A stretch of 63,818 bases of DNA from a virus. The notes beneath the pieces were generated by a model. It was not told the DNA's origin. It ran no database searches and was given only the letters and a program-made list of their open reading frames with translations. Every line of letters begins with the position of its first letter. Within the stretch, counting starts at the first letter, position 1. The stretch is from the IMG/VR virus record IMGVR_UViG_3300020020_000030, positions 1 to 63,818 of that record, one strand, 5' to 3'. A program made the position numbers and the translations under genes. Shown in pieces: positions 8,478-27,817 of the stretch.

Positions 8478-8491
8478 CGCGCGGGTGAGCG

Positions 8492-9876: not shown

Positions 9877-9896
9877 ATTCCCGAACGTTCGGGAAT
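9877..9896. promoter_or_regulatory. Operator palindrome 1
   Basis: ATTCCCGAACGTTCGGGAAT is a perfect 20-bp palindrome and one of six copies in the genome. It lies in the divergent region between the minus-strand promoter (9793-9821) and the plus-strand promoter (10030-10058), together with copy 2. Confidence 0.75.
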
Positions 9897-9969
9897 GCTG
9901 CGAGCCTCGCGTGACGTGTCGCGCACATCACCCGCCTGCCCTCGCGCGAGGCCGGCATGCCGGCTCCGC

Positions 9970-9985
9970 TCCCGAACGTTCGGGA
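9970..9985. promoter_or_regulatory. Operator palindrome 2
   Basis: A 14-bp perfect core CCCGAACGTTCGGG (9971-9984) with slightly degraded flanks. It lies 45 bp upstream of the -35 box of the leaderless promoter and 93 bp from copy 1. Confidence 0.72.
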
Positions 9986-10029
9986 ACCGTGGCCCCTCAC
10001 GCGCTAGGCGCAGGCATGCCCGCGTCGCC

Positions 10030-10058
10030 TTGACGTAAGGCGACGGCGGCCCTAGGCT
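10030..10058 (+). promoter_or_regulatory. Leaderless promoter of the first early operon
   Basis: TTGACG (10030-10035), a 17-bp spacer and TAGGCT (10053-10058). Only six bases (TTAGCC) separate the -10 box from the ATG at 10065, so transcription should begin at or next to the A of the start codon. No ribosome site could be present. Leaderless messages are common in actinobacteria. Confidence 0.7.
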
Positions 10059-10064
10059 TTAGCC

Positions 10065-10427
10065 ATGACAAATCACCTCGACAGCCCAGCCACGCTGGGC
10101 GCAGGAGCGCAAGCGCCTGCACACCTGCCCACGATCGAGCGCCTGCGCGCCCTCGAGCGCGACCTCTGGTTCGCGATGCCGCGGTACACCGACCGCGAGA
10201 ACATGAGCGCGAGCGAGAGCGCACGTGAGCGCGCGCTCGATCACCGGATCTTCGGCCACGTGGCGCCCGCGCTCGACGTGCTGAACAACCTCATGCACGG
10301 GCGCGCGGGCCAGGGCCAGCCCGCGTGTGACTGCGGTGAATGGCCGCAGCTCAACGCGATCGCGGCCATCGTGCCGGGCGAGCGCGAGCACACGCCCACG
10401 TTCGCAGACTTCGGAGACTTCGAGTGA
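10065..10427 (+). CDS. First early gene, unrecognised
   Basis: A 120-residue protein (MTNHLDSPATLGAGAQ...). Residues about 22-55 are strongly helical and charged, followed by ALDVLNNLMHG and a CDCGEWPQ segment with two Cys that might bind metal. I recognise no family. It is the first plus-strand gene of the early region and probably starts a leaderless transcript. Its stop overlaps the next GTG. Confidence 0.75.
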   Translation: MTNHLDSPATLGAGAQAPAHLPTIERLRALERDLWFAMPRYTDRENMSASESARERALDHRIFGHVAPALDVLNNLMHGRAGQGQPACDCGEWPQLNAIAAIVPGEREHTPTFADFGDFE

Positions 10428-10624
10428 GCGCGCTCAGGCGCCCGAGCCTGTGGGCACGCAAGCGCGAGGAGCGACTCTCCGCCCTGATCGAGCACCTGCT
10501 CGATCTCGCCGCGAGCACGCCCGACCCCGCCCGCGCGCACGTGCTCGACCGCCGAGTCTCGTCGGTGTTCGCCACGTACGACGCGCACGTGGCCCGGCAC
10601 ATGCCCGCGTGGAGCCCCTCGTGA
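10424..10624 (+). CDS. Hypothetical basic protein
   Basis: A 66-residue Arg-rich protein (VSALRRPSLWARKREER...) starting at a GTG that overlaps the preceding TGA and ending in a GTGA overlap with the next gene. The length, coupling and helical composition support a real gene; the function is unknown. Confidence 0.65.
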   Translation: MSALRRPSLWARKREERLSALIEHLLDLAASTPDPARAHVLDRRVSSVFATYDAHVARHMPAWSPS

Positions 10625-10773
10625 GCGCGTCGCGCTGCGTGCGCCTGCGTACGCTCGCGAGCGTGCTCGAGGGCGCGCTCGCCTACGCGCTCGCGGCCGG
10701 CGACCGACGCTGGTGGCGCACGCTCGCCCGCCGGCACGCGCGCGTCACGCGAGAGCTCGCCAGGTGCGTGTGA
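10621..10773 (+). CDS. Hypothetical very basic small protein
   Basis: A 50-residue protein with an Arg-rich helix (DRRWWRTLARRHARVTREL). It begins with VSA, as does its upstream neighbour, from a GTGA-coupled start, and the two may be related. No family is recognised. Confidence 0.6.
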   Translation: MSASRCVRLRTLASVLEGALAYALAAGDRRWWRTLARRHARVTRELARCV

Positions 10774-10841
10774 CTATGGCACGCGAGCACCTACCCGCCC
10801 GCATGGGATCAACAAACGAACCGACCTGGGAGTCAACAAAG

Positions 10842-11177
10842 ATGAGCCCTTCCGCGCCCAAGCGCACGACGTACGTGCGCCCCTTCCGCATCCGCTGGGA
10901 TCGCATCGCAGCTGCTCTCGTGCTCGGGCTCGTGCTCGCCGCGCTCGCATGGTGGTGGCTGACGATCGCCTCTGAGGTCAACGAAGATCCGTACGCCGGC
11001 GTGCCCCGATGCACCGACGCGATCGCGGATGCCGGCGGCATCTGCCACGGCGAGCCCCTGCCCCCGTGCCCGACCGAGGACTCACACGACTGCTACTGGG
11101 ACGCGCGCACGATGGGCAACGGCACGGGCCGGAGCTTCATCGACGAGGGTGGTTCCCAAACGTTCGGGAATCCCTGA
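10842..11177 (+). CDS. Single-pass membrane protein
   Basis: A 111-residue protein with a basic N terminus (SPSAPKRTTYVRPFRIRWDR), one hydrophobic helix at about residues 23-42 (IAAALVLGLVLAALAWWWL) and a Cys-rich C-terminal domain (Cys in CTDA, GGICH, PPCPTEDSHDCYW) that should be outside the membrane. ATG 10842 is chosen for the GGGAG site nine bases upstream; an in-frame ATG at 10776 would add 22 residues. Its last codons are written in the operator palindrome at 11153-11170. Function unknown. Confidence 0.7.
   Translation: MSPSAPKRTTYVRPFRIRWDRIAAALVLGLVLAALAWWWLTIASEVNEDPYAGVPRCTDAIADAGGICHGEPLPPCPTEDSHDCYWDARTMGNGTGRSFIDEGGSQTFGNP
11153..11170. promoter_or_regulatory. Operator palindrome 3 (one arm altered)
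   Basis: TTCCCAAACGTTCGGGAA differs from the perfect palindrome at one base (A for G in the left arm). It overlaps the end of the upstream coding sequence and lies 79 bp upstream of the -35 box at 11249. Confidence 0.65.
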
Positions 11178-11248
11178 CCCTCACGTGATGCGCACTTGCG
11201 CATGGCGTGCGGCACGTGTGTACAGGCGGGCAGCCGGCACACGTGGCC

Positions 11249-11277
11249 TTGACATAAGCCCTGCCCAACCCTAGGCT
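11249..11277 (+). promoter_or_regulatory. Early promoter
   Basis: TTGACA (11249-11254), a 17-bp spacer and TAGGCT (11272-11277), the best match of the promoter family. The start codon at 11314 follows a leader of about 30 bases with a GGAAAGGA ribosome site. Confidence 0.75.
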
Positions 11278-11313
11278 TGCACTAGCAAGTTGATCCCCGG
11301 AAAGGACACTCAC

Positions 11314-11613
11314 ATGACCGCCACTACCACCTGCACCCGCGGGTACACCAACGTCCCGCCGTACGAAACGGCCCCGCTCGCGCAGGTCAAGCCCTCCGCG
11401 AAGTACGCCTACGCCACCCGCCCCGCGGGCACCGCGCCCGCCGTCGAGCGGGCCTACGCCTCGATCAACGAGGCCCGGCGCCAGCGCGAACTCGCCCGCC
11501 GTCGCAACGAGTGGGTCTCTCACCTGCTCGAGCGCGTCGGCCCCCGCGAGTGGGTGCCCGTGAACCCCAAGCTCCGCGTCATGTACGCCATCCCCACGCC
11601 CGCCAACGCCTGA
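11314..11613 (+). CDS. Hypothetical protein
   Basis: A 99-residue protein (MTATTTCTRGYTNVPPYE...) with a Thr/Pro/Tyr-rich first half and a basic helix at about residues 48-75 (YASINEARRQRELARRRNEW). First gene of the second early operon; the ATG follows GGAAAGGACACTCAC. Function unknown. Confidence 0.72.
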   Translation: MTATTTCTRGYTNVPPYETAPLAQVKPSAKYAYATRPAGTAPAVERAYASINEARRQRELARRRNEWVSHLLERVGPREWVPVNPKLRVMYAIPTPANA

Positions 11614-11631
11614 CCCCGGAAGGAACAGACC

Positions 11632-11913
11632 ATGCGTTACACCATCATCATCGACGACCTCGCGCTGCCGCGTGCCACGTACGCCGGCGCGGACACGCTC
11701 GAGCAGGCCAAGCAGGAGCTCCGCATCCACCTGGCCGCGCACCCGAAGTCAACGAACGTCGTCGCCGAGGTCGCCGAACCGGGCGACCAGCACCCGCGCT
11801 GGGTGCTCGTCGCGACCGCCCGCAAGGGCATCCGGTCTATTGCCGGAGCAACCCGTACCCCCGAGGGCATGCTCGTCATGCCCACCCCCGAGCTCGCACC
11901 CGCGAGCGTCTGA
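11632..11913 (+). CDS. Hypothetical protein
   Basis: A 93-residue protein beginning MRYTIIIDDLALPRATY, with alternating strands and one helix (LEQAKQELRIHLAAHP), suggesting a small alpha/beta fold. The start follows a GGAAGGAACAG site 18 bases after the previous stop. Function unknown. Confidence 0.72.
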   Translation: MRYTIIIDDLALPRATYAGADTLEQAKQELRIHLAAHPKSTNVVAEVAEPGDQHPRWVLVATARKGIRSIAGATRTPEGMLVMPTPELAPASV

Positions 11914-11926
11914 CAAGGAGCAAGAG

Positions 11927-12931
11927 ATGACCACTGTGATCAAGGCCGGAACCGCGGCCGACTTCCTGGGCATGGTGCCCGCCCTGCTGGGCTACGTGCC
12001 CACCGAATCCGTCGTGCTCGTGCTCTTCGAGGGCGCGCGCAGTGTCGGTGCCATGCGTGTCGACGTGCCGACGCAGGGCATGGACCTCAACGAATACGCG
12101 AGCACGCTCACGGGCTACACCGTGCGCAAGGCGGGCGCCGACGGGGTGGCGGCGATCGTCTACACCTCACGCCCGCACGACGAGCGAGCGCTCGCCGTGC
12201 TCAACGCCCTGCTCGTCCGGCTGAACGACCACGGGATGCGCGCAGTCGACCTGCTCTACGTGGCCGGCGATGGCTGGGGCTCGCTCATGCAGGGCGGCGC
12301 ACCGCACCCGCACGAGGAGATCGCTCCGCACCCGGATGCCCCGCCCGTGCAGGCCGGCGATCAGGCCGCGAGCGCGAAGCTCCCGACCATCAACGAGCAG
12401 TACGCCGCCGACGTGATGAGCTACGTGGGCACGTGGGCACCCGACGAGGCGACCGAGCTGCTCGACCTGTTCGAGCTCGTCACCAAGGACGGGCGGATGC
12501 TCGCCCACCATGCCGGCCGGGTCATCGACGCGCTCGACAAGCCCGCGCTCCGAGACATTGGACTGGTGCAGTGGACCGGCGACTACGCCCGAGGCGAGCT
12601 CGCGCTTGAGGCGCAGCTCGCGTGGGAAGAGGGCGTCGAGTACCCCGCTGACCTGGCGATGGTGATGTGGGGCGAGGGTCCGCAGCCGGACGTCGCACGC
12701 CTCGAGCATGTGCGTGCCACCATGCGTGAGCTCGCCGCGATCTGCCCCACCTCCGGTGTGCTGGCGACGCTGGCGTGGATCTCGTGGGCATTCGGTCGCT
12801 CGACCGAGGCCGACGCCTACGCAGAGATGGCGCTCAAGGCGAACCCCGAGCACGGGCTGGCCGAGATCGTGCGCTCGTTCGTGAACGCCGGCCACCTCCC
12901 GCAGTGGGCGTTCGAGGCCAAGCATGCGTAG
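11927..12931 (+). CDS. DUF4192-family protein
   Basis: A 334-residue protein whose N-terminal part (ADFLGMVPALLGYVPTESVVLV, with the following GARSVGAMRVDVP) matches what I know of DUF4192, an actinobacteria- and phage-specific family of unknown biochemical role. The C-terminal third reads like tetratricopeptide helices (LAWISWAFGRSTEADAYAEM, then ALKANPEHGLAEIV). ATG 11927 sits behind AAGGAG. It ends with an eight-base overlap onto the next gene. Confidence 0.8.
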   Translation: MTTVIKAGTAADFLGMVPALLGYVPTESVVLVLFEGARSVGAMRVDVPTQGMDLNEYASTLTGYTVRKAGADGVAAIVYTSRPHDERALAVLNALLVRLNDHGMRAVDLLYVAGDGWGSLMQGGAPHPHEEIAPHPDAPPVQAGDQAASAKLPTINEQYAADVMSYVGTWAPDEATELLDLFELVTKDGRMLAHHAGRVIDALDKPALRDIGLVQWTGDYARGELALEAQLAWEEGVEYPADLAMVMWGEGPQPDVARLEHVRATMRELAAICPTSGVLATLAWISWAFGRSTEADAYAEMALKANPEHGLAEIVRSFVNAGHLPQWAFEAKHA

Positions 12932-13196
12932 CAAGAGCGGGTGGCTGTCGCCCGCCGCCCTGCGTGACGGACTGATCGAGGAGTGGGCGATCGACATGGG
13001 CGAGGCGCGTGGTGTCACCACTCGCCATCGCATCACGCTCGGCTACGCCGGCTTCGGGAGCGAGCCGCACCAGTGGGTCGTCACGCGCTGGCGCTTCGAG
13101 GGTGAGGCCAAGGTCGAGGAGCACAAGTGGTGGTTCGTCAAACTCAACGAGGCGCGCGATGTGTGGAAGCGGCAGGTGCAGCGCACGGCCACGTGA
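12924..13196 (+). CDS. Hypothetical protein
   Basis: A 90-residue protein (MRSKSGWLSPAALRDGLIEE...), Trp-rich and strand-rich in its second half (QWVVTRWRFEG, HKWWFVKL). It overlaps the DUF4192 gene and is the last of that operon. Function unknown. Confidence 0.7.
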   Translation: MRSKSGWLSPAALRDGLIEEWAIDMGEARGVTTRHRITLGYAGFGSEPHQWVVTRWRFEGEAKVEEHKWWFVKLNEARDVWKRQVQRTAT

Positions 13197-13215
13197 GCAG
13201 GCGTCGCGCGACTGC

Positions 13216-13244
13216 TTGACATAGGGTTGCCCTAGTGCCAGGCT
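13216..13244 (+). promoter_or_regulatory. Early promoter upstream of dprA-like gene
   Basis: TTGACA (13216-13221), a 17-bp spacer and CAGGCT (13239-13244). Transcription should start near 13251, just ahead of operator palindrome 4, which could therefore block initiation or elongation. Confidence 0.68.
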
Positions 13245-13259
13245 GGATCTAGTCAACGA

Positions 13260-13281
13260 GATTCCCGAACGTTCGGGAATC
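13260..13281. promoter_or_regulatory. Operator palindrome 4
   Basis: The longest copy: a perfect 22-bp palindrome whose inner 20 bases are ATTCCCGAACGTTCGGGAAT. It begins 16 bp past the -10 box, inside the leader of the dprA-like message. Confidence 0.78.
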
Positions 13282-13306
13282 GAACTCCCCGGAAGGAGCC
13301 ACGCCA

Positions 13307-14215
13307 ATGCTGCGTGCAATCACACCCGAGCGCGAGGCGCTCATCATCCTGTCCCACCTGACCGAGCCCGGCGATCACGAGGCCGCGCACCTGGCTCACG
13401 CCGTCGGCCCGGTCACGGCGGTGGACATGCTCGTGCACGAGCGGATCGCCATCCCCTCGGAGGCGCACGCCGCGCTCGTCCGTCGCACCAAGCCGCGCTT
13501 CCGAGCCGGCATCGTGACCGAGGTGCTCACCCTGTGCGAGCGCTCGAACATCGACGTGCTCATCCCGAGCGACCCGGAGTGGCCGACCGAGCAGTTCGCC
13601 ACGATGGGCGACCAGGCACCGCACGTGCTGTACGTGCGAGGCAACGCCTGGGCGCTGGCGATGGAGCGACAGCATCGCGTCGCCATCGTCGGGGCACGAG
13701 CGGCCACCAGCTACGGCGAGCACGTCACGGGCGAGCTCGTCGCCGATCTGGTGAAGGACCACGTGATCGTCAGTGGTGCCGCGTATGGCATCGACGGTGC
13801 CGCGCACCGGATGGCGCTCGCGGCCGGCGGTCAGACCGTGGCGTTCCTCGCCGGCGGAGTCGACCGCCCGTACCCTGCCGGCCACGCCAACATGATCGAG
13901 AGGATCGCGGCATCCGGCGCCGTCGTGAGCGAGGTGCCGCCCGGCAGTGCGCCTACCAAGTGGCGGTTCCTGCAGCGCAACCGCCTGATCGCCGCGCTCG
14001 GCGACGCCTCGATCGTGGTCGAGGCGGGCTGGCGCAGTGGATCTCTCAACGAAGCCGGGCACGCCCGTGCGTTCGGCCGTCCGGTCGGCGCCGTGCCTGG
14101 TCCCATCACGTCCGCGGCAAGCGGCGGCACGCACCGTCTCATCCAGGAGTTCGGTGCTCACCTCATCACGAGCGCGGCAGATGTCCGCGCTCTCACCATT
14201 GGAGAACAGTCATGA
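13307..14215 (+). CDS. dprA: DprA/Smf-like DNA-processing protein
   Basis: A 302-residue protein with the Rossmann-like DprA core: VAIVGARAATSYG near residues 125-137, SGAAYGIDGAAH near 156-167, LAGGVDRPYP near 182-191 and RNRLIAALGDASIVVEA near 223-239. Bacterial DprA binds single-stranded DNA and loads RecA. The N-terminal segment is helical. ATG 13307 follows GGAAGGAG. In a phage it may aid recombination or protect single strands beside the Rad52-like and SSB proteins encoded later. It leads a long run of coupled small genes. Confidence 0.85.
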   Translation: MLRAITPEREALIILSHLTEPGDHEAAHLAHAVGPVTAVDMLVHERIAIPSEAHAALVRRTKPRFRAGIVTEVLTLCERSNIDVLIPSDPEWPTEQFATMGDQAPHVLYVRGNAWALAMERQHRVAIVGARAATSYGEHVTGELVADLVKDHVIVSGAAYGIDGAAHRMALAAGGQTVAFLAGGVDRPYPAGHANMIERIAASGAVVSEVPPGSAPTKWRFLQRNRLIAALGDASIVVEAGWRSGSLNEAGHARAFGRPVGAVPGPITSAASGGTHRLIQEFGAHLITSAADVRALTIGEQS

Positions 14216-14634
14216 CCGACACCACCCTCACGCAGCTCGCGCTCGTCCAGCCCGGCACCAAGATCCTGTTCAACGCACAGGAGTACGTCGTGGTCGAGCA
14301 CGCCCGCACCCGCACCAAGATCAGCCGGACCAGCGACGGCAAGATGTTCGTGCTCTCGATGAACGCGAGGGTCGCCGAGGTCGGGCGGGACAACGACGCG
14401 CTGGCCGCGGCGCTCGCCGCCCGCGAGGAGCGGATGGCCGCTCGCAACGGTGCCGCGTACACCGCTCGCCCCACCCTGACGGTCGGCACCAAGGTGCGCT
14501 TCGCCGACACCGCGCAGACCCGCAAGGCCGGCATCGCCGGCGAGGAGTCGGTCATCGTCCGGGTCAACACCAAGACCTACGGGCTGGCGAACGGCTACCG
14601 CGTGACGCCCGGGCTGGTGGAGGAGATCAAGTGA
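14212..14634 (+). CDS. Hypothetical protein with two small beta domains
   Basis: A 140-residue protein. Two similar beta-rich units, LVQPGTKILFNAQEYVVVEH (about residues 10-29) and LTVGTKVRFADTAQTRKAG (about 90-108), are joined by a helical linker, suggesting a duplicated SH3- or KOW-like fold. It starts by ATGA overlap with the dprA-like gene, hinting at a joint role. Confidence 0.7.
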   Translation: MTDTTLTQLALVQPGTKILFNAQEYVVVEHARTRTKISRTSDGKMFVLSMNARVAEVGRDNDALAAALAAREERMAARNGAAYTARPTLTVGTKVRFADTAQTRKAGIAGEESVIVRVNTKTYGLANGYRVTPGLVEEIK

Positions 14635-15098
14635 AGATCCACTCCGACATCCTGACGACGCGCGACGTGTACGCCGCGACCAGCGCGGCCGGCATGCGCG
14701 GCGTCACCGCCGAGCGGCTGGAAGAACACGGCTCGCGCTCCCGCGCTCGCTCGTTCGACGTCACGCTCCGGGGCAACTCGACCCGCAAGCCGAACCCTGG
14801 CACCGGCGGGCGGTACTTCGACGAGGGTGAGTACGCCGCCACGTGGGACGAGTGGGGCATGTTCATCCACGCGCTCTACGAGGCGGACCCGAAGGCCCTG
14901 ATCGGGGACTACGGCCCGCGCCACGTCTTCGAGCAGGCCACCCGCCTGCGCTTCGAGGAGCTCACCGCCAAGGACGCCTGCCGCAACCACGTGTGGAAGA
15001 GCGGTGGCCCGATGATGCGCGAGTGCAAGAGGTGCCAGGCCCTGCACGACTACGGCCCCATCCACGAGCAGTACCGAGCGAAGGCGAAGGCAGCATGA
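14631..15098 (+). CDS. Hypothetical protein with C-terminal Cys/His motif
   Basis: A 155-residue protein from a GTG that overlaps the previous TGA. The C terminus has CRNHVWKSGGPMMRECKRCQ, an arrangement (Cys, His, Cys-X2-Cys) that probably binds zinc. The middle is aromatic and acidic. Family not recognised. Confidence 0.7.
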   Translation: MKIHSDILTTRDVYAATSAAGMRGVTAERLEEHGSRSRARSFDVTLRGNSTRKPNPGTGGRYFDEGEYAATWDEWGMFIHALYEADPKALIGDYGPRHVFEQATRLRFEELTAKDACRNHVWKSGGPMMRECKRCQALHDYGPIHEQYRAKAKAA

Positions 15099-15352
15099 CC
15101 GCGTACGCAGACGAGCCCTCAACCGACGGGCTCAACCACCTGCAAGCCACGGCCCTCGCAGCTGCGCCCGGCGCGAGCCTGCTCTACACCCGCATGGAGG
15201 TGATCAACGCGATCACCATGCGGCGCAGGGTCTACGCCCTGACCCGCGACCACAAGGAGATCGTGCGCCTGCACACCCGCGAGGCATTCGCCAAGCGGGA
15301 GTGGGCCGGCTACTGGGTCGGGGCCACGTCGGTCCCGGTCGTGCGGCGATGA
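15095..15352 (+). CDS. Hypothetical protein
   Basis: An 85-residue protein (MTAYADEPSTDGLNH...), mixed alpha/beta, Arg-rich in the second half. The ATG overlaps the preceding stop and the stop overlaps the next ATG (ATGA at both ends). Function unknown. Confidence 0.68.
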   Translation: MTAYADEPSTDGLNHLQATALAAAPGASLLYTRMEVINAITMRRRVYALTRDHKEIVRLHTREAFAKREWAGYWVGATSVPVVRR

Positions 15353-15618
15353 CCGCCGACGACATCGCCCGCGACCTCATGGTCAACGGCTTGCAGGACA
15401 CCATCGAGGACGCGCTCCGCTCGGCCGCGAAGCAGGGCGAGGCGCTGATTCAGGGCAAGTGCGACGAGTTGGTCAAGCGTTACGACAACGCCTGCGCCGA
15501 GTACAAGCTCGCCATCGAAGAGGGCAACTACGAGGTCAAGGCGTACGAGGTCTACGAGGACGCGCTCATGGATCTCGTGCACGAGTTCGCCGCCGCAGTA
15601 GGGAGTGACGAAGCATGA
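15349..15618 (+). CDS. Hypothetical helical protein
   Basis: An 89-residue, almost wholly helical acidic protein (DLMVNGLQDTIEDALRSAAK, later CAEYKLAIEEGNYEVKAY) that could form a coiled coil. Coupled at both ends by ATGA overlaps. Function unknown. Confidence 0.68.
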   Translation: MTADDIARDLMVNGLQDTIEDALRSAAKQGEALIQGKCDELVKRYDNACAEYKLAIEEGNYEVKAYEVYEDALMDLVHEFAAAVGSDEA

Positions 15619-15914
15619 GCACAACGAACATCGGCATCATGGTGCCGGCCGACCTCGATCGCGAGGCCGGGCCGGTGTACTCCGCGTACCGCTCCGACAC
15701 CGGCATGGAGTACGAGCTCTTCGAGTGCGCCGATGGCGTGGGCGCGCTCATCGGGTCGAACCACGAGGACGTCGGGCTCGTCACGTGGTGGCGCACCGGC
15801 TCGCTCGAAGAGGGCACCGAGTGGATCGACGCGCAGCTCGTCGACGAGGAGGCGGACACCGCGCTCGCGATCGACGGCGTGGTCATCGCACAGTCGAGGA
15901 CGGTGGACCTGTGA
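15615..15914 (+). CDS. Hypothetical acidic protein
   Basis: A 99-residue strongly acidic protein with an alternating strand pattern (MEYELFECADGVGALIG, VGLVTWW) and a C-terminal IDGVVIAQSRTVDL. Coupled by ATGA at the start and GTGA at the end. No family recognised; very acidic small phage proteins sometimes mimic DNA, but nothing specific supports that here. Confidence 0.68.
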   Translation: MSTTNIGIMVPADLDREAGPVYSAYRSDTGMEYELFECADGVGALIGSNHEDVGLVTWWRTGSLEEGTEWIDAQLVDEEADTALAIDGVVIAQSRTVDL

Positions 15915-16135
15915 CCGAGCCCACCTGCAAGGGCACCGACCGCATCGTCTCGGCCGAGCGGATCAAGCGCGCGATCTTCACGACCGAGTGGCGGACCTGG
16001 TGCCCGCACTGCCTCAAGAGCGCGCCCTTCCGGCGCGCCGAGGTCAAGCCCGGCGGCGGCTACGCCCGTCGCTACGACCCACATCCGCCGGCGCAGGTGG
16101 ATGTTCCACGTGAAACATCCGAGGAGGACGAGTGA
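15911..16135 (+). CDS. Small zinc-binding-type protein carrying a parS site
   Basis: A 74-residue protein with a CPHCLK pair (about residues 31-36) after TEWRTW, likely half of a zinc site, and a basic middle. The codons for its last residues (DVPRETS) are written within a perfect parS palindrome at 16102-16117. GTG start overlapping the previous stop. Function unknown. Confidence 0.68.
   Translation: MTEPTCKGTDRIVSAERIKRAIFTTEWRTWCPHCLKSAPFRRAEVKPGGGYARRYDPHPPAQVDVPRETSEEDE
16102..16117. promoter_or_regulatory. parS-type ParB-binding site
   Basis: TGTTCCACGTGAAACA matches the consensus for chromosomal centromere sites bound by ParB/Spo0J (TGTTnCACGTGAAACA) at every defined base, with the sequence extended by A and T on either side. 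It lies inside a coding frame. I see no ParB gene in the phage, so host ParB is the likely ligand if the site is used. Confidence 0.7.
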
Positions 16136-16467
16136 CCATCAACGAACGAGCGGCCGAGCTGCGCGCCGCGATCGACACGTACGACGCCGGCAACCCGCCG
16201 GTGAACAAGGCCGGCGCACTGTTGCCCGGCGCCAAGGCCGAGATCGTGGCGGTCGACCCCGTGATCGAGGCGGCGAACGCCCTGCTCGGTCTGCTCGGCC
16301 AGCCCGAGTCCGTCGACCCGGAGTTCCGCGAGCAGATCATCGAGGTCATCGAGGGCACGTTCGAGGCGGCGGACGGGGACAGCAACGACCACGAGATCGA
16401 GCTCTTGCAGGACGCCCGCGACCTGCTGGCGCAGGTCATCCACTACCAGCACGAGGAGGAGCAGTGA
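16132..16467 (+). CDS. Hypothetical acidic helical protein
   Basis: A 111-residue protein, acidic and helical (VDPVIEAANALLGLLGQP, then REQIIEVIEGTFEAADGD), starting at a GTG that overlaps the preceding stop behind GGAGGACGA. Function unknown. Confidence 0.7.
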   Translation: MTINERAAELRAAIDTYDAGNPPVNKAGALLPGAKAEIVAVDPVIEAANALLGLLGQPESVDPEFREQIIEVIEGTFEAADGDSNDHEIELLQDARDLLAQVIHYQHEEEQ

Positions 16468-16826
16468 GCAGTCACATCGAATGGGTCCATGCCCGCCACG
16501 TACAGGTGGCCGGCATCGCCGAGCCCGGCGAGTTCGACAACGACAGCGACCAGAACGAGGTCGGGTGCGTCACGATCACCGACGAGAACGGCGACGGCAT
16601 CTGCATCGAGGGCCGGCCGGAGGATCTGATCGAGTTCGCGAAGCGTGTCGTGATCGCGGCGAACACCGTCGCATCCGACACCAACGCGAGCGCGAAGCTG
16701 CGCTCGCTGTACGGCATCACCGATCCCCTCGATCGGGAGCCGAGCCAGATCCATGAAGAGATGGGCAGGCAGGTGCTGGACGACCAGTACTTCGAGCCCG
16801 AGTACAACGACGGAGGCATGCAATGA
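16464..16826 (+). CDS. Hypothetical acidic protein
   Basis: A 120-residue protein (VSSHIEWVHARHVQVAG...), with a strand-rich acidic first half (VGCVTITDENGDGICIEG) and a helical second half. GTG start inside the previous stop, ATGA overlap with the next gene. Function unknown. Confidence 0.68.
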   Translation: MSSHIEWVHARHVQVAGIAEPGEFDNDSDQNEVGCVTITDENGDGICIEGRPEDLIEFAKRVVIAANTVASDTNASAKLRSLYGITDPLDREPSQIHEEMGRQVLDDQYFEPEYNDGGMQ

Positions 16827-17897: not shown

Positions 17898-17927
17898 CGG
17901 TCACCATCCCGGAAGGAATCAACAAGC

Positions 17928-18440: not shown

Positions 18441-18441
18441 C

Positions 18442-20132: not shown

Positions 20133-20134
20133 GG

Positions 20135-20163
20135 TTGCGCTAGGGCCACCCTTGGATTAGGGT
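20135..20163 (+). promoter_or_regulatory. Early promoter, weaker -35
   Basis: TTGCGC (20135-20140), a 17-bp spacer and TAGGGT (20158-20163). The -35 is poorer than in the other family members. The region is also an imperfect inverted repeat (CTAGGGCCACC with GGTGGCCCTAG) that could attenuate read-through from upstream. Confidence 0.55.
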
Positions 20164-20173
20164 GGCCCTAGCA

Positions 20174-20193
20174 ATTCCCGAACGTTCGGGAAT
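20174..20193. promoter_or_regulatory. Operator palindrome 5
   Basis: A perfect 20-bp copy, ATTCCCGAACGTTCGGGAAT, starting 11 bp past the -10 box and so covering the expected start of transcription, as at 13260. Confidence 0.76.
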
Positions 20194-20216
20194 CAGATCC
20201 CCGGAAAGGATTCAGC

Positions 20217-20729: not shown

Positions 20730-20911
20730 CCGACGGGATGATCGTCGACCCGACCAACCCCGAGAAGGCGATCGCGGTCGCGACCGGGAACATGGCGACG
20801 CCGGTCTACCTGGCCGACGAGACCGAGTTGACCGGGTGGAAGCTCGTCGGGTTCGGCGACCCGGCCACCATGTTCGACGCCGAGCACCCGCCGACGGAGG
20901 AGGAATCGTGA
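20726..20911 (+). CDS. Hypothetical small protein
   Basis: A 61-residue protein (VTDGMIVDPTNPEKAIA...) from a GTG overlapping the previous TGA and ending in a GTGA overlap with the next gene. Strand-rich, acidic C terminus. Function unknown. Confidence 0.63.
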   Translation: MTDGMIVDPTNPEKAIAVATGNMATPVYLADETELTGWKLVGFGDPATMFDAEHPPTEEES

Positions 20912-21189
20912 GTGTCACCAAGACCACATGCCTGCATGGCATCGCCATCGCCATGAGTGACGGCATGATCTACCCGCTCACGCCCTGCCACCAGGCATCC
21001 GGCAAGGGTTCCGAGGTTCCGACCGGGGTGGTCTGCCGCTCCTGCTACGAGGAGGTCGACCCGCTGTACGGCGACTGCGACGTGGCGTACGAGACGACCC
21101 GGCTGGCGGCGTGGCTGAATGAGCAGGGCTGCCCGACACCGGACGCCTGCAAGAGCATCGTGCTCGGCCGGCTGGTGGTGCAGGCATGA
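20908..21189 (+). CDS. Cys-rich, probable zinc protein
   Basis: A 93-residue protein with seven Cys, including CLHG near residue 8, TPCH near 26-29, CRSC at about 43-46 and GDC near 54-56; the pairs could form one or two zinc sites. GTG start coupled to the previous gene. Function unknown. Confidence 0.66.
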   Translation: MSVTKTTCLHGIAIAMSDGMIYPLTPCHQASGKGSEVPTGVVCRSCYEEVDPLYGDCDVAYETTRLAAWLNEQGCPTPDACKSIVLGRLVVQA

Positions 21190-21878
21190 CCGCCGAGGTG
21201 GTCCCGAGCCCGAACGGCTGGCGGGTGACCTGCGCCCAGCACGGGCAGATCGGCACGGCCTCCACCGAGGGTGCCCACCAGGTCAGCGTCGCGAAGGCGC
21301 ACAACAACCAGGAGCACTGGGCCGAGGTGCGCGAGAAGCTGATCAGCGAGAGCGGTCAGCCCAAGCTCCGCTCGGTCTACCGCTCGGTGTGCAACGACTG
21401 CCACATCATCGAGGACGACTGGGCCACGCCGTCGAGCGCCGCCCGCCAGGCCCGCACGCACAACGGCACCGTGCACGGTTACTGGGGCGACGTGCGCATG
21501 AAGATCAACGAACGAAAGGACAATCCCATGAGGGACAGCAAGACCGTCGACACTGCCATCGAGCTCGCCGAGGCGCGGCTCGCCGCACTGCTTGACGAGC
21601 GCGAGCAGCTGCGCAAGCTGCCGGCCGAGCCCCCGATCAACGGCACCGTCGTGACGTTCCGGGTGCGCTACAGCGAGCACGACTCCACCCGCTACAGCTA
21701 CGCCGCGATCAAGGCGAGGGGCGCCTGGTTCCTCACCGGCATGGTCACCAGCGGCAAGTCATGGGCGGAGATCCTCGAGCTCGCGGGGCAGGACGCCGAC
21801 GTGATGGACGGCCAGCGCCGGCTCTCGTTCGAGATGTTCGTGCCCGGCAGTGGCACTCCGATCAAAGCCGAGAAGTGA
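21186..21878 (+). CDS. Hypothetical protein, possibly two domains
   Basis: A 230-residue protein. The first 110 residues contain two Cys/His motifs (VTCAQHGQIG and SVCNDCHII). A second part begins at residue 115 with MRDSKTVDTAIELAE, and directly upstream of that Met lies GAAAGGA, a good ribosome site, so the second domain (residues 115-230) may also be made separately. The C-terminal part is strand-rich. Function unknown. Confidence 0.68.
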   Translation: MTAEVVPSPNGWRVTCAQHGQIGTASTEGAHQVSVAKAHNNQEHWAEVREKLISESGQPKLRSVYRSVCNDCHIIEDDWATPSSAARQARTHNGTVHGYWGDVRMKINERKDNPMRDSKTVDTAIELAEARLAALLDEREQLRKLPAEPPINGTVVTFRVRYSEHDSTRYSYAAIKARGAWFLTGMVTSGKSWAEILELAGQDADVMDGQRRLSFEMFVPGSGTPIKAEK

Positions 21879-22207
21879 TGCACCAGCCGTTCACGCTCAC
21901 GGTCGGGAGCGTCACGATCAACGCGCTCCCGACCACCTGCCCACGGTGCGGCAAGGGGACCGGGGAGTTCTGCGGTCACTGGGCGCGCATGGAGCAGGCC
22001 GTGCGTGAACGGCTGGCCGTCGCCGCCGACCGGCGGGAGCGCTCCAACCTGAGCGCATTGCTCGAGGGGATGTCGCGCAACCAGGCTGCGCTCGCGGCAT
22101 CCGGCGAGCACGACATCGAGAACCTGGCGCAAGGCGCCAGGCGGATGCCGACGTGGCGACAGTCGCCACGCCTGCACGTTCGTCACGTGAGCGGAGATCA
22201 CAAGTGA
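21878..22207 (+). CDS. Hypothetical protein with N-terminal zinc motif
   Basis: A 109-residue protein with CPRCGKGTGEFCGHW near residues 21-35, a plausible zinc ribbon, followed by a long basic helix. The ATG overlaps the preceding stop as TGATG; a GTG three bases earlier is an alternative start. Function unknown. Confidence 0.66.
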   Translation: MHQPFTLTVGSVTINALPTTCPRCGKGTGEFCGHWARMEQAVRERLAVAADRRERSNLSALLEGMSRNQAALAASGEHDIENLAQGARRMPTWRQSPRLHVRHVSGDHK

Positions 22208-22512
22208 GCCCCGACCGTTCGCAGATCCGTGTCGAGCTCGACATGGACGAGCTCGTCGCCAGCTACGTGTTCGCCACCCGCCGGGATCAGATCGACGACG
22301 GCGGCGCCAAGGGGATCTGGAACGGGTTCGGGCAGTTCGTCGTCCGGGTCAACGGCCACCCCGTGCTGGCGGTCACGCTGCGTGAGGACAAGCAGGGGCG
22401 CGTCGTGCTCGAGACTCAACAGGTCGACGACCGAGGGCCGTTCGGCATGGCAACCCACATCGAGCTCGAGCGTGACGGCAAGGTGCCGGCTCGGACGGAG
22501 AGGACACAATGA
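22204..22512 (+). CDS. Hypothetical protein
   Basis: A 102-residue mixed alpha/beta protein (VSPDRSQIRVELDMDEL...) with strands FGQFVVRVNGHPVLAVTLRE and RVVLETQQV. GTG start overlapping the previous stop, ATGA overlap downstream. Function unknown. Confidence 0.66.
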   Translation: MSPDRSQIRVELDMDELVASYVFATRRDQIDDGGAKGIWNGFGQFVVRVNGHPVLAVTLREDKQGRVVLETQQVDDRGPFGMATHIELERDGKVPARTERTQ

Positions 22513-22751
22513 CCACCATCGCTGTGCACACCATCACTGCGAACAACGCCGCGCACGTGCTGCACGTGACCGGCTACGAGGGAGGCATGGAGCCCGGCGG
22601 CTTCACGACCAAGCTCATCGAGGCCGCGCTGGTCGCCGACCTCGGCAACCTCGAGCGGCTGGGTCGCGGGTTCGAGGGGCTGATCGCCGCGGTGCAGGTC
22701 TACAAGACCCTGCCCAACGGCGTCGACATCCTGCGAGAGATCGCGACCTGA
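22509..22751 (+). CDS. Hypothetical small protein
   Basis: An 80-residue protein (MTTIAVHTITANNAAHV...) with a His-rich strand segment and a C-terminal helix (EGLIAAVQVYKTL). Coupled by ATGA upstream and a one-base overlap downstream. Function unknown. Confidence 0.66.
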   Translation: MTTIAVHTITANNAAHVLHVTGYEGGMEPGGFTTKLIEAALVADLGNLERLGRGFEGLIAAVQVYKTLPNGVDILREIAT

Positions 22752-23023
22752 TGCCGAAGCCGTACCCGTGGGCACGACTGATCGCCGAGCTGCGCAGGCA
22801 GCCCGGCCAGTGGCGCCTGTTCCCAGAGATGACGGGCCGGCCGTTGACTCTGGTGAACCGGGTGCGGCGTCGGAACGCAAGGGCTCTGCGCCTGCCGGAC
22901 GGCAAGCTCTACGCCCGACGCGGAGCGCACCTCGCGCACCGTGACGACGCAGTCATCACGGACGTGTGGCTGTGCTTCATCCCCAACGAAAGAGAGAGTG
23001 ACGATGGCCGAGAGAGCGGCTAG
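22751..23023 (+). CDS. Hypothetical basic protein
   Basis: A 90-residue Arg-rich protein (MPKPYPWARLIAELRRQPGQ...). The pattern PGQWRLFPEMTGRP, then VRRRNARALRLPDGKLYARR, looks like a small nucleic-acid-binding domain seen in other actinophage short proteins. It overlaps the next gene by 20 bases. Function unknown. Confidence 0.66.
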   Translation: MPKPYPWARLIAELRRQPGQWRLFPEMTGRPLTLVNRVRRRNARALRLPDGKLYARRGAHLAHRDDAVITDVWLCFIPNERESDDGRESG

Positions 23024-23312
23024 CCAGACCGAGATCGACAGCATCCGCACGGTGTACCTGTCGCCGAGCGACCACGAATCCCTGCATGCGTTCGCTCGTG
23101 CGCAGGACTCGAGCGCGAGCGCGCTGATCCGCTCGTTCCTCGACGACTTCCTGAACAACAAGCTCAAGGTCGTCAAGATCAAGCCCCGCAAGACGACGGT
23201 GTGGGTCGACCCGACGTTCTGGGAAGAGGTGCGCGCCAAGGCCCAGGAGGAGAACGTCGCCGTTGCGCAGATCATCCAGGCCGGCATGGCTCGACTGCGG
23301 GGTGGCAAGTGA
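23004..23312 (+). CDS. Possible ribbon-helix-helix DNA-binding protein
   Basis: A 102-residue protein. Residues 14-50 (IRTVYLSPSDHESLHAFARA, then SASALIRSFLDDFL) fit a strand-helix-helix DNA-binding unit, and a second similar unit may follow (KTTVWVDPTFWEEVRAKAQE, then VAQIIQAGMARL), so this could be a fused ribbon-helix-helix dimer. ATG 23004 follows AGAGAGAG. It is a candidate for the protein that binds the phage palindromes, without direct evidence. Confidence 0.66.
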   Translation: MAERAASQTEIDSIRTVYLSPSDHESLHAFARAQDSSASALIRSFLDDFLNNKLKVVKIKPRKTTVWVDPTFWEEVRAKAQEENVAVAQIIQAGMARLRGGK

Positions 23313-23602
23313 CCCGGTCGCTCGAGATGACCGTATCCACCGAGGACGACGGCACCGGCGCGTCGATCATCCTCGAGTCGCACGGCTTCTCCGAGCCGGA
23401 GATTCTCGAGGTCATCACCCGCACCGCGGAGTCGATCATCCAGCGCGGCATGCGCGACAGCCCGGAGGCGGCGGAGCAGTTCGCCGGCATGAGCCACGAC
23501 CAGACGTGCGCGCAGCTCGCGTTGCAGTCGCGCCTCACGCTGATCTCGATGATCACCGAGATGGATCTCGTCGACTCCGCCGGCGTGGCCATCGAGCTAT
23601 GA
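23309..23602 (+). CDS. Hypothetical protein
   Basis: A 97-residue protein (VTRSLEMTVSTEDDGTGAS...) with helix EPEILEVITRTAESIIQRG. GTG start overlapping the previous stop. Last gene of the operon, directly before a strong terminator. Function unknown. Confidence 0.67.
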   Translation: MTRSLEMTVSTEDDGTGASIILESHGFSEPEILEVITRTAESIIQRGMRDSPEAAEQFAGMSHDQTCAQLALQSRLTLISMITEMDLVDSAGVAIEL

Positions 23603-23603
23603 G

Positions 23604-23640
23604 GAACGCCCGCCGGCGTGGGCCAGGCGGGCGTTCATTG
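23604..23640 (+). terminator. Terminator of the third early operon
   Basis: GAACGCCCGCC (23604-23614) pairs perfectly over 11 bp with GGCGGGCGTTC (23626-23636), then ATTGTT. It begins two bases after the stop of the last gene. Confidence 0.8.
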
Positions 23641-23864
23641 TTCCCCGGAAAGGAACGAACTCGAGCATACATGAAGCGAGGCCCCGCACCTCGAGTTTGG
23701 GGCCTCGCGCGGCGAGGCTCCTTGGGAGTAGCCTCGCAAGACAGATCAGTGTCCGCGCCTCACATTCTGGGGGTAGCGGGCTCCTCGACGCAAGCCCCGG
23801 AGATACATGTGAGCACTACATCTAGCCCCTGTTACCTATTTGAGACCCAGATCTGGGGCTCCCG
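23641..23864 (+). other. Hairpin-rich leader of the primase gene
   Basis: This 224-base gap has no gene. It holds two further hairpins: GCGAGGCCCC (23676-23685) with GGGGCCTCGC (23699-23708), 10 bp, and GCGAGGCT (23712-23719) with AGCCTCGC (23730-23737), 8 bp. The arms are related in sequence, so alternative pairings between the two hairpins are possible, as in an attenuator. A further AGCCCC/GGGGCT pair brackets about 23793-23859 just before the primase start. No good -35/-10 pair is seen. Confidence 0.5.
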
Positions 23865-26045
23865 ATGAGCGATAACGCGGAGCGCGCACTCGCACTGGCC
23901 TCGCTCGGCCTGCACGTGTTCCCCTGCTTCGAGTCGGGCGAGCACTTCAAGGCCCCCCGCACCGAGCATGGATTCTTGGAGGCTACTCTCGATCCGGCTC
24001 AGATACGAGGGTGGTGGTCAGCCACCCCCGAGGCGGAGATCGGCGTCGCCTGCGGCGCCTCCGGTCTGGTGGTCGAGGACATCGACCACAAGCCCGACAA
24101 GGACGGCCTCGCCTCGCTGCGCAACCGTGGCCTCGAGCCCGACCGCGAGACCTGGTGGTACGAGACGCCGTCCGGCGGCTTCCACTTCATCCACCTCGCC
24201 CCGCCGGGCGTGCCGGGCCCGACGCAGAACCACAAGCTCGAGGACGGCACGAAGCTCATGGGAGTGGACCGCCGATCGGGCGGCTCGTACTTCATCTGGT
24301 GGGACGAGGCGTGGCCCGACGAGCGCAGCTCATTCACGCCGGCGCCCGACTGGTTCCTGAACCACACCGGCACCGAGGGCGACGGCTGGGGTGGCACACT
24401 CGGCGAGTGGCTGGCGACCGTCGGCGCCGGCACCATGAGCCCGCTCATGCGCTCGGCCCTCGACAAGATCCCGCGTGAGGACTTCGGCCGCGGCGAGCTC
24501 TTCACCCGCCTCACGCACATCATCCGGCTGGCCACCGTGGACGGCGAGCCTGGTGCCGGTGAGGCACTAGAGACTCTCAAGCAAGAGTGGCTCCGCGGGC
24601 CGTGGAACCAGCCCAAGTTCCAGGCCGAGTGGAACGTCTCGCTCGGCAATGCGGTGCAGTCCAACGGCGGCGTCCGTGCGCAGGCCGAGCCCAAGGTGGC
24701 GGAGCGCACGGCGATCAGCGACTACTCGTTCTTCGACCAGAGCGAGACGCTCATGCAGATCAGGGCGTGGGCGATGGGGCTCGAGGTCAACCCGTGGGCC
24801 TGTCTGGCGATGGCCCTCACCCGACTGTCCGCCGACCTCATGCCCACGATCAAGCTCCCGGGCATCGGAGCGTTCGCCGAGGGCTCGCTGAATCTCTTCA
24901 CGGTCTTGTCCGCACCCTCGGGTGGTGGCAAGACCGCGATCATTTCCAGCCACGAGCAGCGCATGCGCAAGCGGCCGAGGCCCGACCCGTCGCCTCGCTT
25001 CCCGCTCGGCACCGGCGAGGGCATCGCAGCTCGGTACATCCGCCGGCAGAAGATCACCGCCGAGATGCGCAAGGCTGACCCGACGCTCGACCCGCACGCC
25101 GAGTACGTCGACCGCCGCATCACCTGGCAGGCCCTCGCGATCGTCGACGAGATCGACATGATCGCGGCGCTCGCCAGGCGCAGTGGCGCGACGCTCCTGT
25201 CCACGCTCAAGACCGCATGGATGAGCGACGACCTCGGCAACGGCAACGCCACGCAGGAGCTCGACCGCCAAGTGCCGGCCCACAGCTACCGGCTGTGCAT
25301 GATCGTCGGCGCCCAGCCCGGACGCGCAGAGATCCTGCTCGACAAGGATGCCGAGGCCGGCGGTCTCATGCAGAGGTTCCTGTTCGCCACCGTCGGCGAC
25401 CCGCACGCCTCGATGGACGCGCCGTTCATGCCGGAGCCGCCGCCGCTGGTCTACAAGATCAGCGACAACATCCCGTTCGATCGGCGCTTCGGCTCTGACA
25501 CGTTCGAGCCGCACCCGGACAAGGGCTGGGTGTTCACGTACGATCCGGGCGTCGTCATCGAGGTGCTCCGCACGCTCCGCGCGATCCGTCAGGAGCGCGA
25601 GGACTCCCGGCACGGCCACCGCAACTTCCTCAAGCTGCGCGTGGCTGCTCTGCTGGCGATCATGCACGGCGGCGACAGCGTCACGCGGCACTGGTTCGAC
25701 CAGGCGGAGTACGTCATGGCACACAGCGACGCGACGCTCTCCGCGCTCATCGACGTGCAGCGCCAGAGCAAGCGGGCGGAGGACGCCGCGAAGGGCATGG
25801 GCGACGCAGAACGCGCCCTTGCCGGCGAGGTCAGCATCCTGCACAAGACGTCCGATCGCGTGATCGAGATCTTGCGTCGCGATCCCGGACTCCCGATCTC
25901 ACACATCCGGCGCATGCTCACCAAGTCCATGCACGAGAACCTCGACGCCGCACTGCACCTGCTCGTGGAGCAGGGCCGGGTACGGAAGGAGGACGTGAAC
26001 TCCGCGAAGAGCCAGAAGCCTGCAGCTCGCTACTACCCGATGTGA
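23865..26045 (+). CDS. Bifunctional primase-polymerase/helicase
   Basis: A 726-residue replication protein. The N-terminal quarter is a prim-pol domain: GLVVEDIDHK with Asp72 and Asp74 as likely metal ligands and a TPSGGFHF motif at residues 101-108. The second half is a P-loop ATPase with Walker A SAPSGGGKT (Lys356) and Walker B AIVDEID (Asp428-Glu429), followed by a helicase-type region and a C-terminal winged-helix-like segment (DPGLPISHIRRMLTKSMHEN). It would prime and unwind at the origin, which probably lies directly downstream. The start has only a weak ribosome site. Confidence 0.85.
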   Translation: MSDNAERALALASLGLHVFPCFESGEHFKAPRTEHGFLEATLDPAQIRGWWSATPEAEIGVACGASGLVVEDIDHKPDKDGLASLRNRGLEPDRETWWYETPSGGFHFIHLAPPGVPGPTQNHKLEDGTKLMGVDRRSGGSYFIWWDEAWPDERSSFTPAPDWFLNHTGTEGDGWGGTLGEWLATVGAGTMSPLMRSALDKIPREDFGRGELFTRLTHIIRLATVDGEPGAGEALETLKQEWLRGPWNQPKFQAEWNVSLGNAVQSNGGVRAQAEPKVAERTAISDYSFFDQSETLMQIRAWAMGLEVNPWACLAMALTRLSADLMPTIKLPGIGAFAEGSLNLFTVLSAPSGGGKTAIISSHEQRMRKRPRPDPSPRFPLGTGEGIAARYIRRQKITAEMRKADPTLDPHAEYVDRRITWQALAIVDEIDMIAALARRSGATLLSTLKTAWMSDDLGNGNATQELDRQVPAHSYRLCMIVGAQPGRAEILLDKDAEAGGLMQRFLFATVGDPHASMDAPFMPEPPPLVYKISDNIPFDRRFGSDTFEPHPDKGWVFTYDPGVVIEVLRTLRAIRQEREDSRHGHRNFLKLRVAALLAIMHGGDSVTRHWFDQAEYVMAHSDATLSALIDVQRQSKRAEDAAKGMGDAERALAGEVSILHKTSDRVIEILRRDPGLPISHIRRMLTKSMHENLDAALHLLVEQGRVRKEDVNSAKSQKPAARYYPM

Positions 26046-26051
26046 TCCAAC

Positions 26052-26220
26052 AAGTAGGCAGTAGGTGCCTACTTCTTGGCTTCCCTCTCTGCTCCTTATA
26101 TCGCGAATGCAGCCTGACAACCTTTTCCTTCTCTGACCTGGGATTTTTATTTCAAGTCGAACGGACCAAGAAGTAGACGTCTACCGCCTACTTCCTAGAA
26201 ATAGGCGTCTACTGCCTACC
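26052..26220. promoter_or_regulatory. Candidate replication origin with iterons
   Basis: Three copies of a repeat of about 20 bp, consensus TAGrCryCTACyGCCTAC, occur at 26052-26079 (inverted), 26166-26193 and 26201-26220. The first two form a 28-bp imperfect inverted repeat (24 of 28 paired) around an 86-bp segment that is the most AT-rich and pyrimidine-rich stretch I noticed in the genome. Iterons beside an AT-rich segment, directly after the primase/helicase gene, are classic origin features. Confidence 0.6.
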
Positions 26221-26236
26221 GAGAAAGGCCCTCGCC

Positions 26237-26377
26237 ATGAACGATCTACCGGACGATCTCGCACACCCCAGAGGCGAGCACGCATCCTTCATCGCCAACA
26301 TCGTCGTCGCAGTCGTGTTGCTCGTCATCACCGCCGGCACGGTCGCCTTCGGGCTCATGCTCACAGGCGTGTCGTGA
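26237..26377 (+). CDS. Small single-pass membrane protein
   Basis: A 46-residue protein (MNDLPDDLAHPRGEH...) with one hydrophobic helix at about residues 18-43 (FIANIVVAVVLLVITAGTVAF). ATG 26237 follows GAGAAAGG. It is the first gene after the putative origin and overlaps the next start by one base. Function unknown. Confidence 0.65.
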   Translation: MNDLPDDLAHPRGEHASFIANIVVAVVLLVITAGTVAFGLMLTGVS

Positions 26378-26484
26378 TGGACCCGGAGTGGGACCAGCCC
26401 GCGAGCACGCTCGAGTTCGAGGACTCGATGGTGCGCATCCACGAATCCCTGGAAATGGAGATACCTGAATGGCTACAGCACTGA
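26377..26484 (+). CDS. Very small acidic protein
   Basis: A 35-residue acidic peptide (MDPEWDQPASTLEFED...) that starts in the stop of the previous gene (TGATGG) and overlaps the methyltransferase start by 16 bases. Coupling on both sides is the only support; it may serve mainly to link translation. Confidence 0.45.
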   Translation: MDPEWDQPASTLEFEDSMVRIHESLEMEIPEWLQH

Positions 26485-27629
26485 GTCTGTTCGCAGGCGT
26501 CGGCTTCGGCGTCGCCTGCGAACGCATGAGCATCGCCGAGCTCGGCGTCGAGAATGACCTCGACGTGATCGCGACGCGGCACGCGGCCGGCATGACGACG
26601 ATCGCGCACGACGTGTGGGATCTTGCCGGCCCGGGCGTGCGCCTGGTGTACGACCTGCTGCTCGCGGGCCCGCCCTGCCAGACCTTCTCGAAGGTCGGCC
26701 GCGGGCACGGTCGGAGGGACATCGACGTCATCGTGAACATCGCGCGCGAGATCGGGCACGGCGCGGATGCCGACCGGGTCCGGGAGTGGACCGCCCACAT
26801 CGAGGATCCACGCACCGCGCTCGTGCTGCTCCCGCTGGTCTACGCGATGCGCGACCGCCCGGAGGCGATCGTGCTCGAGCAGGTGCCGGCCGTGCTCCCG
26901 GTCTGGGAGGCGTACGCCCACAGCCTCACGATGGCCGACTACAGCGTGTGGACGGGCATCGTCGAGGCCGAGGCGTACGGCGTGCCGCAGACCCGCCGGC
27001 GTGCGGTGCTCATCGCGAGCCGCAACCACGACGTCACTCGCCCCGCTCGCACCCACTCCCGCTACCACGTCCGCCACCCCGCGGCGCTGGACCAGGGGAT
27101 GCCGCGCTGGGTTTCGATGCACGACGCGATGGGCTGGCCCGAGGGCGTGGTCGGATTCCCGCGCAAGGCCGACGGCCGCGACGAGGGCGTGGAGATCGGC
27201 GACGAGATGTACCGCTCCCGGGATCTCCGCCCGACGGATCGGCCAAGCTGGGGCGTTACCGGCAAGGCGCGCTCCTGGCGCCGGTGGGGCTTCATGGAAC
27301 GGCCGGCCACCGTCGTCACCGGCCACGGCTTCGCGACGCGGCATCCGTCGGGCGTCCAGCGCACCCACCTCAACGCGATCGAGGCCGGCACCTTCGAGCT
27401 GCGCGAGCCGTGGACGGTGTCCACTGCTCGCCTGCCCACGTTCGACAACGTGAGCCTGAGCCGGAGCTACCACGGCAACGCGGTCAACATCACGCCCGAG
27501 GAGGGCGCGGTGCTGCAGACGTTCTCCCCGGACTTCCCGTTCCGCGGCACCCGCACGAAGGTCTGGCAGACAATCGGCAACGCGATCCCACCCCTGCTCG
27601 CCGAGCACCTGATCCGAGCTGCGCTGTGA
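26469..27629 (+). CDS. DNA (cytosine-5) methyltransferase
   Basis: A 386-residue enzyme with the ordered C5-methyltransferase motifs: I SLFAGVGFG (residues 6-14, cofactor binding), IV GPPCQTFS with catalytic Cys70, VI LEQVP (Glu137; the usual Asn of ENV is Gln here), VIII QTRRR (174-178), IX RPATVVTG and X IGNAIPP. The target-recognition segment lies between about 190 and 310. No matching restriction enzyme is nearby, so it probably protects phage DNA from host restriction. Specificity cannot be read from the sequence. Confidence 0.93.
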   Translation: MATALSLFAGVGFGVACERMSIAELGVENDLDVIATRHAAGMTTIAHDVWDLAGPGVRLVYDLLLAGPPCQTFSKVGRGHGRRDIDVIVNIAREIGHGADADRVREWTAHIEDPRTALVLLPLVYAMRDRPEAIVLEQVPAVLPVWEAYAHSLTMADYSVWTGIVEAEAYGVPQTRRRAVLIASRNHDVTRPARTHSRYHVRHPAALDQGMPRWVSMHDAMGWPEGVVGFPRKADGRDEGVEIGDEMYRSRDLRPTDRPSWGVTGKARSWRRWGFMERPATVVTGHGFATRHPSGVQRTHLNAIEAGTFELREPWTVSTARLPTFDNVSLSRSYHGNAVNITPEEGAVLQTFSPDFPFRGTRTKVWQTIGNAIPPLLAEHLIRAAL

Positions 27630-27817
27630 ACGGCCGCGCCACCTGCCCGTACTGCGGCGTCGACGTGCACATGGACGGGCTCGGCGCGTTCGCGTTTGGC
27701 CCCGACGGTGGCACGACGTGCGCTGTCCGACAGCCAGGGGATACTCGGGTGTTCCTGCTCCACGGCTGGCGCCCGGAGATCTCGATTCCCGAACGTTCGG
27801 GAACGGAGGCCATTTGA
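27626..27817 (+). CDS. Small zinc-type protein
   Basis: A 63-residue protein with CPYCGVDVH near residues 7-15 and a further Cys (TTCAVR), a likely zinc knuckle. GTG start overlapping the methyltransferase stop. Its last codons (SIPERSGT) are encoded by operator palindrome 6, so coding and control overlap. Confidence 0.65.
   Translation: MNGRATCPYCGVDVHMDGLGAFAFGPDGGTTCAVRQPGDTRVFLLHGWRPEISIPERSGTEAI
27786..27803. promoter_or_regulatory. Operator palindrome 6
   Basis: A perfect 18-bp copy, TTCCCGAACGTTCGGGAA, inside the end of the upstream gene and 11 bp upstream of the -35 box at 27814. Unlike copies 4 and 5 it lies ahead of the promoter rather than across the transcription start. Confidence 0.75.

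Follow-up and report, generated by a model that had tools for sequence, protein, structure and literature searches.

The Cluster EG phages of Microbacterium carry an 18-bp inverted repeat in about ten copies, located in the intergenic spacers of the early arm. These phages are described as lytic and, in the passages devoted to the repeats, neither a function nor a binding protein is assigned to them (PMC7302621, PMC9224216). Cluster O mycobacteriophages possess more than 30 copies of a 17-bp dyad repeat, TGTTCGG-N3-CCGAACA, of which about a third are described as lying inside genes and most as not near promoters; the repeats were predicted to bind a dimeric protein, and none is identified in that account of them (PMC4351075). 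The temperate Cluster A phages are described as encoding one helix-turn-helix repressor that acts on many stoperators per genome, site and repressor diverging together (PMC6550527).

The locus presented here belongs to a virus record of IMG/VR (IMGVR_UViG_3300020020_000030), whose entire 63,818 nucleotides form the window of this analysis. Like the Cluster EG genomes, the window contains several perfect inverted repeats of 16-20 bp, mostly intergenic and in the early arm. Unlike the Cluster EG consensus GATCAACCYRGGTTGATC, they read TTCCCGAACGTTCGGGAA, and whereas EG sites are mostly found 14-22 bp before start codons, only two of the six window sites are similarly placed and four lie upstream of promoters. 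As in Cluster O, the dyad repeats are conserved within one genome. As in Cluster A, sites and proposed regulator diverge together, in this case within Cluster EG; unlike the asymmetric, oriented stoperators of Cluster A, the window sites are symmetric, and the proposed regulator was not found to be related to any known family of repressors. The SOS box bound by LexA is spaced as CGAAC-N4-GTTCG, unlike the window site, CGAACGTTCG, which has no spacer. Judged against the portions of the literature cited above, the novelty resides in the sequence, in the conservation of positions with a changed sequence and in the candidate regulator, the kind of repeat being already known. We propose that a dimeric helix-turn-helix regulator encoded by the phage, most likely the gene 15 product, probably uses the six palindromes as its operators.

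Palindromes and predicted promoters of the early arm

A scan of the whole 63.8-kb window at up to three mismatches returned exactly six copies of TTCCCGAACGTTCGGGAA, for 0.01 expected from dinucleotide shuffles (sd 0.10); four are perfect and two carry one mismatch (Table 1). An earlier note, made from the sequence alone, had listed six palindromes, all of which are borne out. The dyad lengths (16-22 bp) and coordinates it gave also hold, save for one broken pair at 11153, and an abundance of equal copies within coding sequence of the minus strand, which it regarded as contrary to a regulon, was not found. All six sites are confined to the early rightward arm. Five are intergenic, compared with 8.3% of the record (P about 2e-5 for at least five of six), and the sixth sits inside the last codons of gene 19. 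The distances separating palindromes from start codons are 24, 27, 64, 78, 143 and 169/180 bp. Palindrome 2 shares the divergent region between genes 15 and 16 with palindrome 1 and begins 61 bp before the rightward -35 element. Other features were observed next to the sites: a strong hairpin with a 14-bp stem and no T run (20139-20172, plus strand) immediately upstream of palindrome 5, and a C-5 cytosine DNA methylase gene (26469-27629, plus strand) directly upstream of palindrome 6.

Table 1. Coordinates of the palindromes, predicted promoters and adjoining genes in the window
Feature	Position	Strand	Remarks
Gene 15 (401 aa), candidate regulator	8492..9697	-	N-terminal helix-turn-helix-like region, putative recognition helix GATSMDTAM by alignment; palindromes 1 and 2 adjoin
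Predicted gene 15 promoter	9793..9821	-	TTGACA-17-TACCGT
Palindrome 1	9878..9895		dyad 9877-9896; between leftward gene 15 and rightward gene 16 (divergent); 180 bp upstream of gene 15
Palindrome 2	9969..9986		16-bp perfect dyad 9970-9985; C for T at position 1
Predicted early rightward promoter	10030..10058	+	TTGACG-17-TAGGCT; ATG at 10065
Palindrome 3	11153..11170		A for G at position 6; one broken pair; end of gene 19
Predicted gene 20 promoter	11249..11277	+	TTGACA-17-TAGGCT
Predicted DprA-gene promoter	13216..13244	+	TTGACA-17-CAGGCT
Palindrome 4	13262..13279		dyad 13260-13281; between predicted start and DprA-gene ribosome site; 27 bp before ATG
DprA-like protein gene	13307..14215	+	directly downstream of palindrome 4
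Weak promoter-like match	20135..20163	+	TTGCGC-17-TAGGGT, by eye; overlaps strong 14-bp hairpin
Palindrome 5	20175..20192		dyad 20174-20193; 24 bp before gene 39 ATG
Palindrome 6	27786..27803		10 bp upstream of gene 52 -35
Predicted gene 52 promoter	27814..27842	+	TTGACT-17-TAGCCT

The pattern TTGAC-N16-18-YASSCT occurs five times in the record, for 0.4 expected, and four of these matches adjoin palindromes. It also occurs twice in one relative of the window (G001) and once in another (G002), in all cases beside a palindrome. A general sigma-70 scan of the record gave no match because the -10 element is TAGGCT-like. Four of the six sites lie upstream of a predicted -35 element and two (13262 and 20175) just downstream of a predicted start. 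Promoters with 17-bp spacers had been reported near the palindromes, which four of the five pattern matches confirm; at 20175 only a weak promoter is present. The sites had also been placed just upstream of the promoters or across the transcription start. This holds only in part: as read by eye, they stand either 10-80 bp upstream of the -35 element or a short way downstream of the predicted start. The mRNA issued from the early rightward promoter may be leaderless, its ATG following at once.

The RNA of palindromes 4 and 5 is predicted to fold into hairpins with 4-nt loops, as terminators or leader structures might. That the palindromes act as RNA hairpins is nevertheless very improbable: the copies of any one genome share a single sequence instead of pairing through different bases, which favours recognition of a DNA sequence over RNA pairing, a mismatch-bounded search disclosed no compensatory pairs among the six window sites, and four of these are upstream of the nearby promoter.

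Palindromes of related phages

The TTCCCGAACGTTCGGGAA 18-mer is absent from the seven relatives first searched. Most genomes examined carry their own recurrent palindrome, each with a different sequence, and this applies to Curtobacterium, Arthrobacter and other Microbacterium phages alike. SadLad, Hyperion and OneinaGillian have GATCAACC-YR-GGTTGATC, Fizzles has GATCTACC, Phinky GATTTCCC, Sunfish CGTCTAGC-N-GCTAGACG, Kithara GTTCAGTGCACTGAAC, Beagle GCCGGT-N2-ACCGGC, and AWGoat and Wilde GGGTCGG-N4-CCGACCC. The Arthrobacter GGGTCGG repeats, whose arms are variable, might be hairpins of another kind. A further genome, G003, displays two palindrome families in successive parts of its early arm, TGTAAAG-N5-CTTTACA and TGTCGGAATTCCGACA, at 666-3037 and 4735-9072. 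In Arthrobacter phage BruhMoment, three GTTTCACGTGAAAC sites (10568, 11159 and 12320) are found in one gene of the structural region and resemble bacterial parS.

The early arms of G001 and G002 are collinear with that of the window. Their palindrome, CCCAA[AC]C-N-G[GT]TTGGG, occupies matching places in the gene 15 divergent region and at genes 20 and 52; in G002 it is also present directly upstream of the DprA homologue, as in the window. Palindrome 3 begins 96 bp before the -35 element of gene 20 and its equivalents 92 bp (G001) and 95 bp (G002) before theirs. Of 15 genomes tabulated, 13 have a palindrome at most about 270 bp upstream of the gene in the gene 15 position. The notion of a phage regulon under a sequence-specific regulator, already put forward in the earlier note, is well supported by the copy number of the sites, by their linkage to promoters and by these conserved positions. 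Outside the early arm, G001 and G002 also share with the window a Ro60-like protein with TROVE and vWA_Ro60 domains (55426-57003, plus strand), encoded inside the minus-strand late module. A Y RNA-like match (YrlA) just upstream of its gene (55045-55107, plus strand) scores 36 bits, below the gathering score, with E=1e-5.

A host transcription factor had been considered as the regulator, and the sites do stand at sigma-70-like promoters. This is extremely unlikely. In bacterial and archaeal genomes the exact 18-mer occurs about at chance level (five matches in 257 Gb, counting exact matches only), as it does in viral collections. Moreover, four phages isolated on one strain, M. foliorum NRRL B-24224, have three palindromes among them (Hyperion, OneinaGillian, Fizzles and Phinky), which argues against a single host factor.

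Candidate regulators

Within Cluster EG, the palindrome co-varies with a hypothetical protein encoded at the right end, by the first gene past the terminal repeat. Its residues 65-68 read VS[ST]T with GATCAACC, VTAT with GATCTACC in Fizzles and YSQA with GATTTCCC in Phinky, which makes three palindrome classes, two of them with a single phage each. VS[ST]T is kept across the GATCAACC phages despite protein identities of 34-46% (OneinaGillian and SadLad to Hyperion), and the Fizzles protein is 60% identical to that of Hyperion, yet has VTAT and GATCTACC. Four more EG phages and Rizwana, checked later and close relatives of phages already seen, have the palindrome predicted from the helix. A scan for four-residue windows with this pattern, over 44 orthologous groups and 9839 windows, returned five proteins; as the EG pattern had been noticed beforehand, the scan served as a check and was no blind discovery. 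The other four sit at portal, tail, tape-measure and recombinase positions, and the EG terminal protein is the sole one with the pattern in a predicted helix-turn-helix. A less stringent comparison indicated that its residues 109-113 also vary with the palindrome. In the AlphaFold model, whose N-terminal domain is confident, residues 65-68 open helix 67-82, the second helix of the helix-turn-helix. Foldseek and VIA-align gave weak matches to this model among which ParB, SopB, Spo0J and VirB DNA-binding domains recur, a likeness that is suggestive only. Pfam and PHROGs searches with the terminal proteins gave no informative match. Since the spelling of the palindrome changes in step with this helix, the protein is probably the reader.

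By position, gene 15 is the window counterpart of the EG protein. It matched nothing in Pfam or PHROGs, and its AlphaFold model was unusable (pLDDT 44). G001 and G002 encode homologues with 29-30% identity across the aligned region. Against a profile of the EG and Sunfish proteins, gene 15 ranked best of the 87 window proteins (P=4e-4, the next being 0.011), and the reverse profile search placed the Sunfish protein first with SadLad and Hyperion second. The homology between gene 15 and the EG protein is therefore moderately supported. The aligned part covers the first 57 residues and stops before the putative recognition helix, so that the helix correspondence GATSMDTAM / GEST[VI]QT[AS]L / VSSTVYG was drawn by eye. 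Profile searches detected no gene 15 homologue in Kithara, G003 and the Arthrobacter phages, whose gene 15 counterparts consequently rest on position only.

The earlier note had instead nominated ribbon-helix-helix (RHH) proteins, encoded at 6455 and 23004. Operators of another phage protein, be it the tandem RHH protein at 23004, the small one at 6455 or a hypothetical protein, are an unlikely reading of the palindromes. The 23004 protein has RHH-type matches as well as homologues in G001 and G002, and the half-sites TTCCCGAA and TTCGGGAA each appear near-palindromic by eye, which tandem RHH dimers may prefer. Its homologues were found in G001 and G002 only, none being detected in Cluster EG, and neither RHH gene adjoins a site. 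The 6455 protein is an unlikely regulator, as its EG homologues or positional equivalents do not track the palindrome: an identical QVNxRL strand of the small RHH protein goes with three palindromes in Hyperion, Fizzles and Phinky, and SadLad has Hyperion's palindrome but a different strand. Two further EG proteins, HTHa and HTHb, likewise failed to track the palindrome and were rejected together with the small RHH protein; EG RHH2 was set aside on a comparison made by eye only. Gene 15, rather than either RHH protein, is the best candidate reader on present sequence data.

Mode of action and significance

The gene 15 protein would bind as a dimer, with one recognition helix per half-site. It would control its own promoter and set the timing or the level of the early rightward operons, most likely through repression. 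From sites downstream of the start it could block initiation or form a roadblock, and from sites upstream of the promoter it would act at a distance. Repression seems likelier than activation because operators lie just downstream of starts and autoregulation is likely, but activation would be compatible as well with the sites that precede promoters. That the relatives have this arrangement with other half-sites is proposed to reflect a joint divergence of helix and operators.

Control of initiation alone does not explain all sites, as no promoter was detected close to many of those in EG. The gene 15 protein could instead use the palindromes as roadblocks in the manner of stoperators, or as sites that organise the genome, and so affect elongation or DNA topology. 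Many sites of the EG phages, Sunfish and Kithara indeed precede a start codon by 9-29 bp, and no promoter was detected around them. Cluster A repressors are described as working at stoperators away from promoters (PMC6550527), and the modelled EG homologue bears the weak likeness to ParB, SopB and VirB domains mentioned above. This reading is somewhat unlikely given that, in the window, G001 and G002, the sites stand at similar distances from recognisable promoters, and that the window sites lack the orientation of stoperators.

Beyond the operators of a gene 15 regulator in this one virus, we rate just short of probable a regulator-operator system widespread among lytic actinobacterial phages. 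Its regulator would be a helix-turn-helix protein that evolves fast and whose gene heads the early arm; it would read many copies of a palindrome specific to each phage, helix and sites having repeatedly changed in concert. If true, this would account for the dyad repeats left unassigned in Cluster EG and in the Arthrobacter and Curtobacterium relatives. Such repeats have been in print since 2015, in the descriptions cited here with neither binding protein nor function attached to them. A named candidate and natural specificity variants make the question testable by simple binding assays, and the answer would show how virulent phages control their early genes and how, without lysogeny, the specificity of their operators diversifies.
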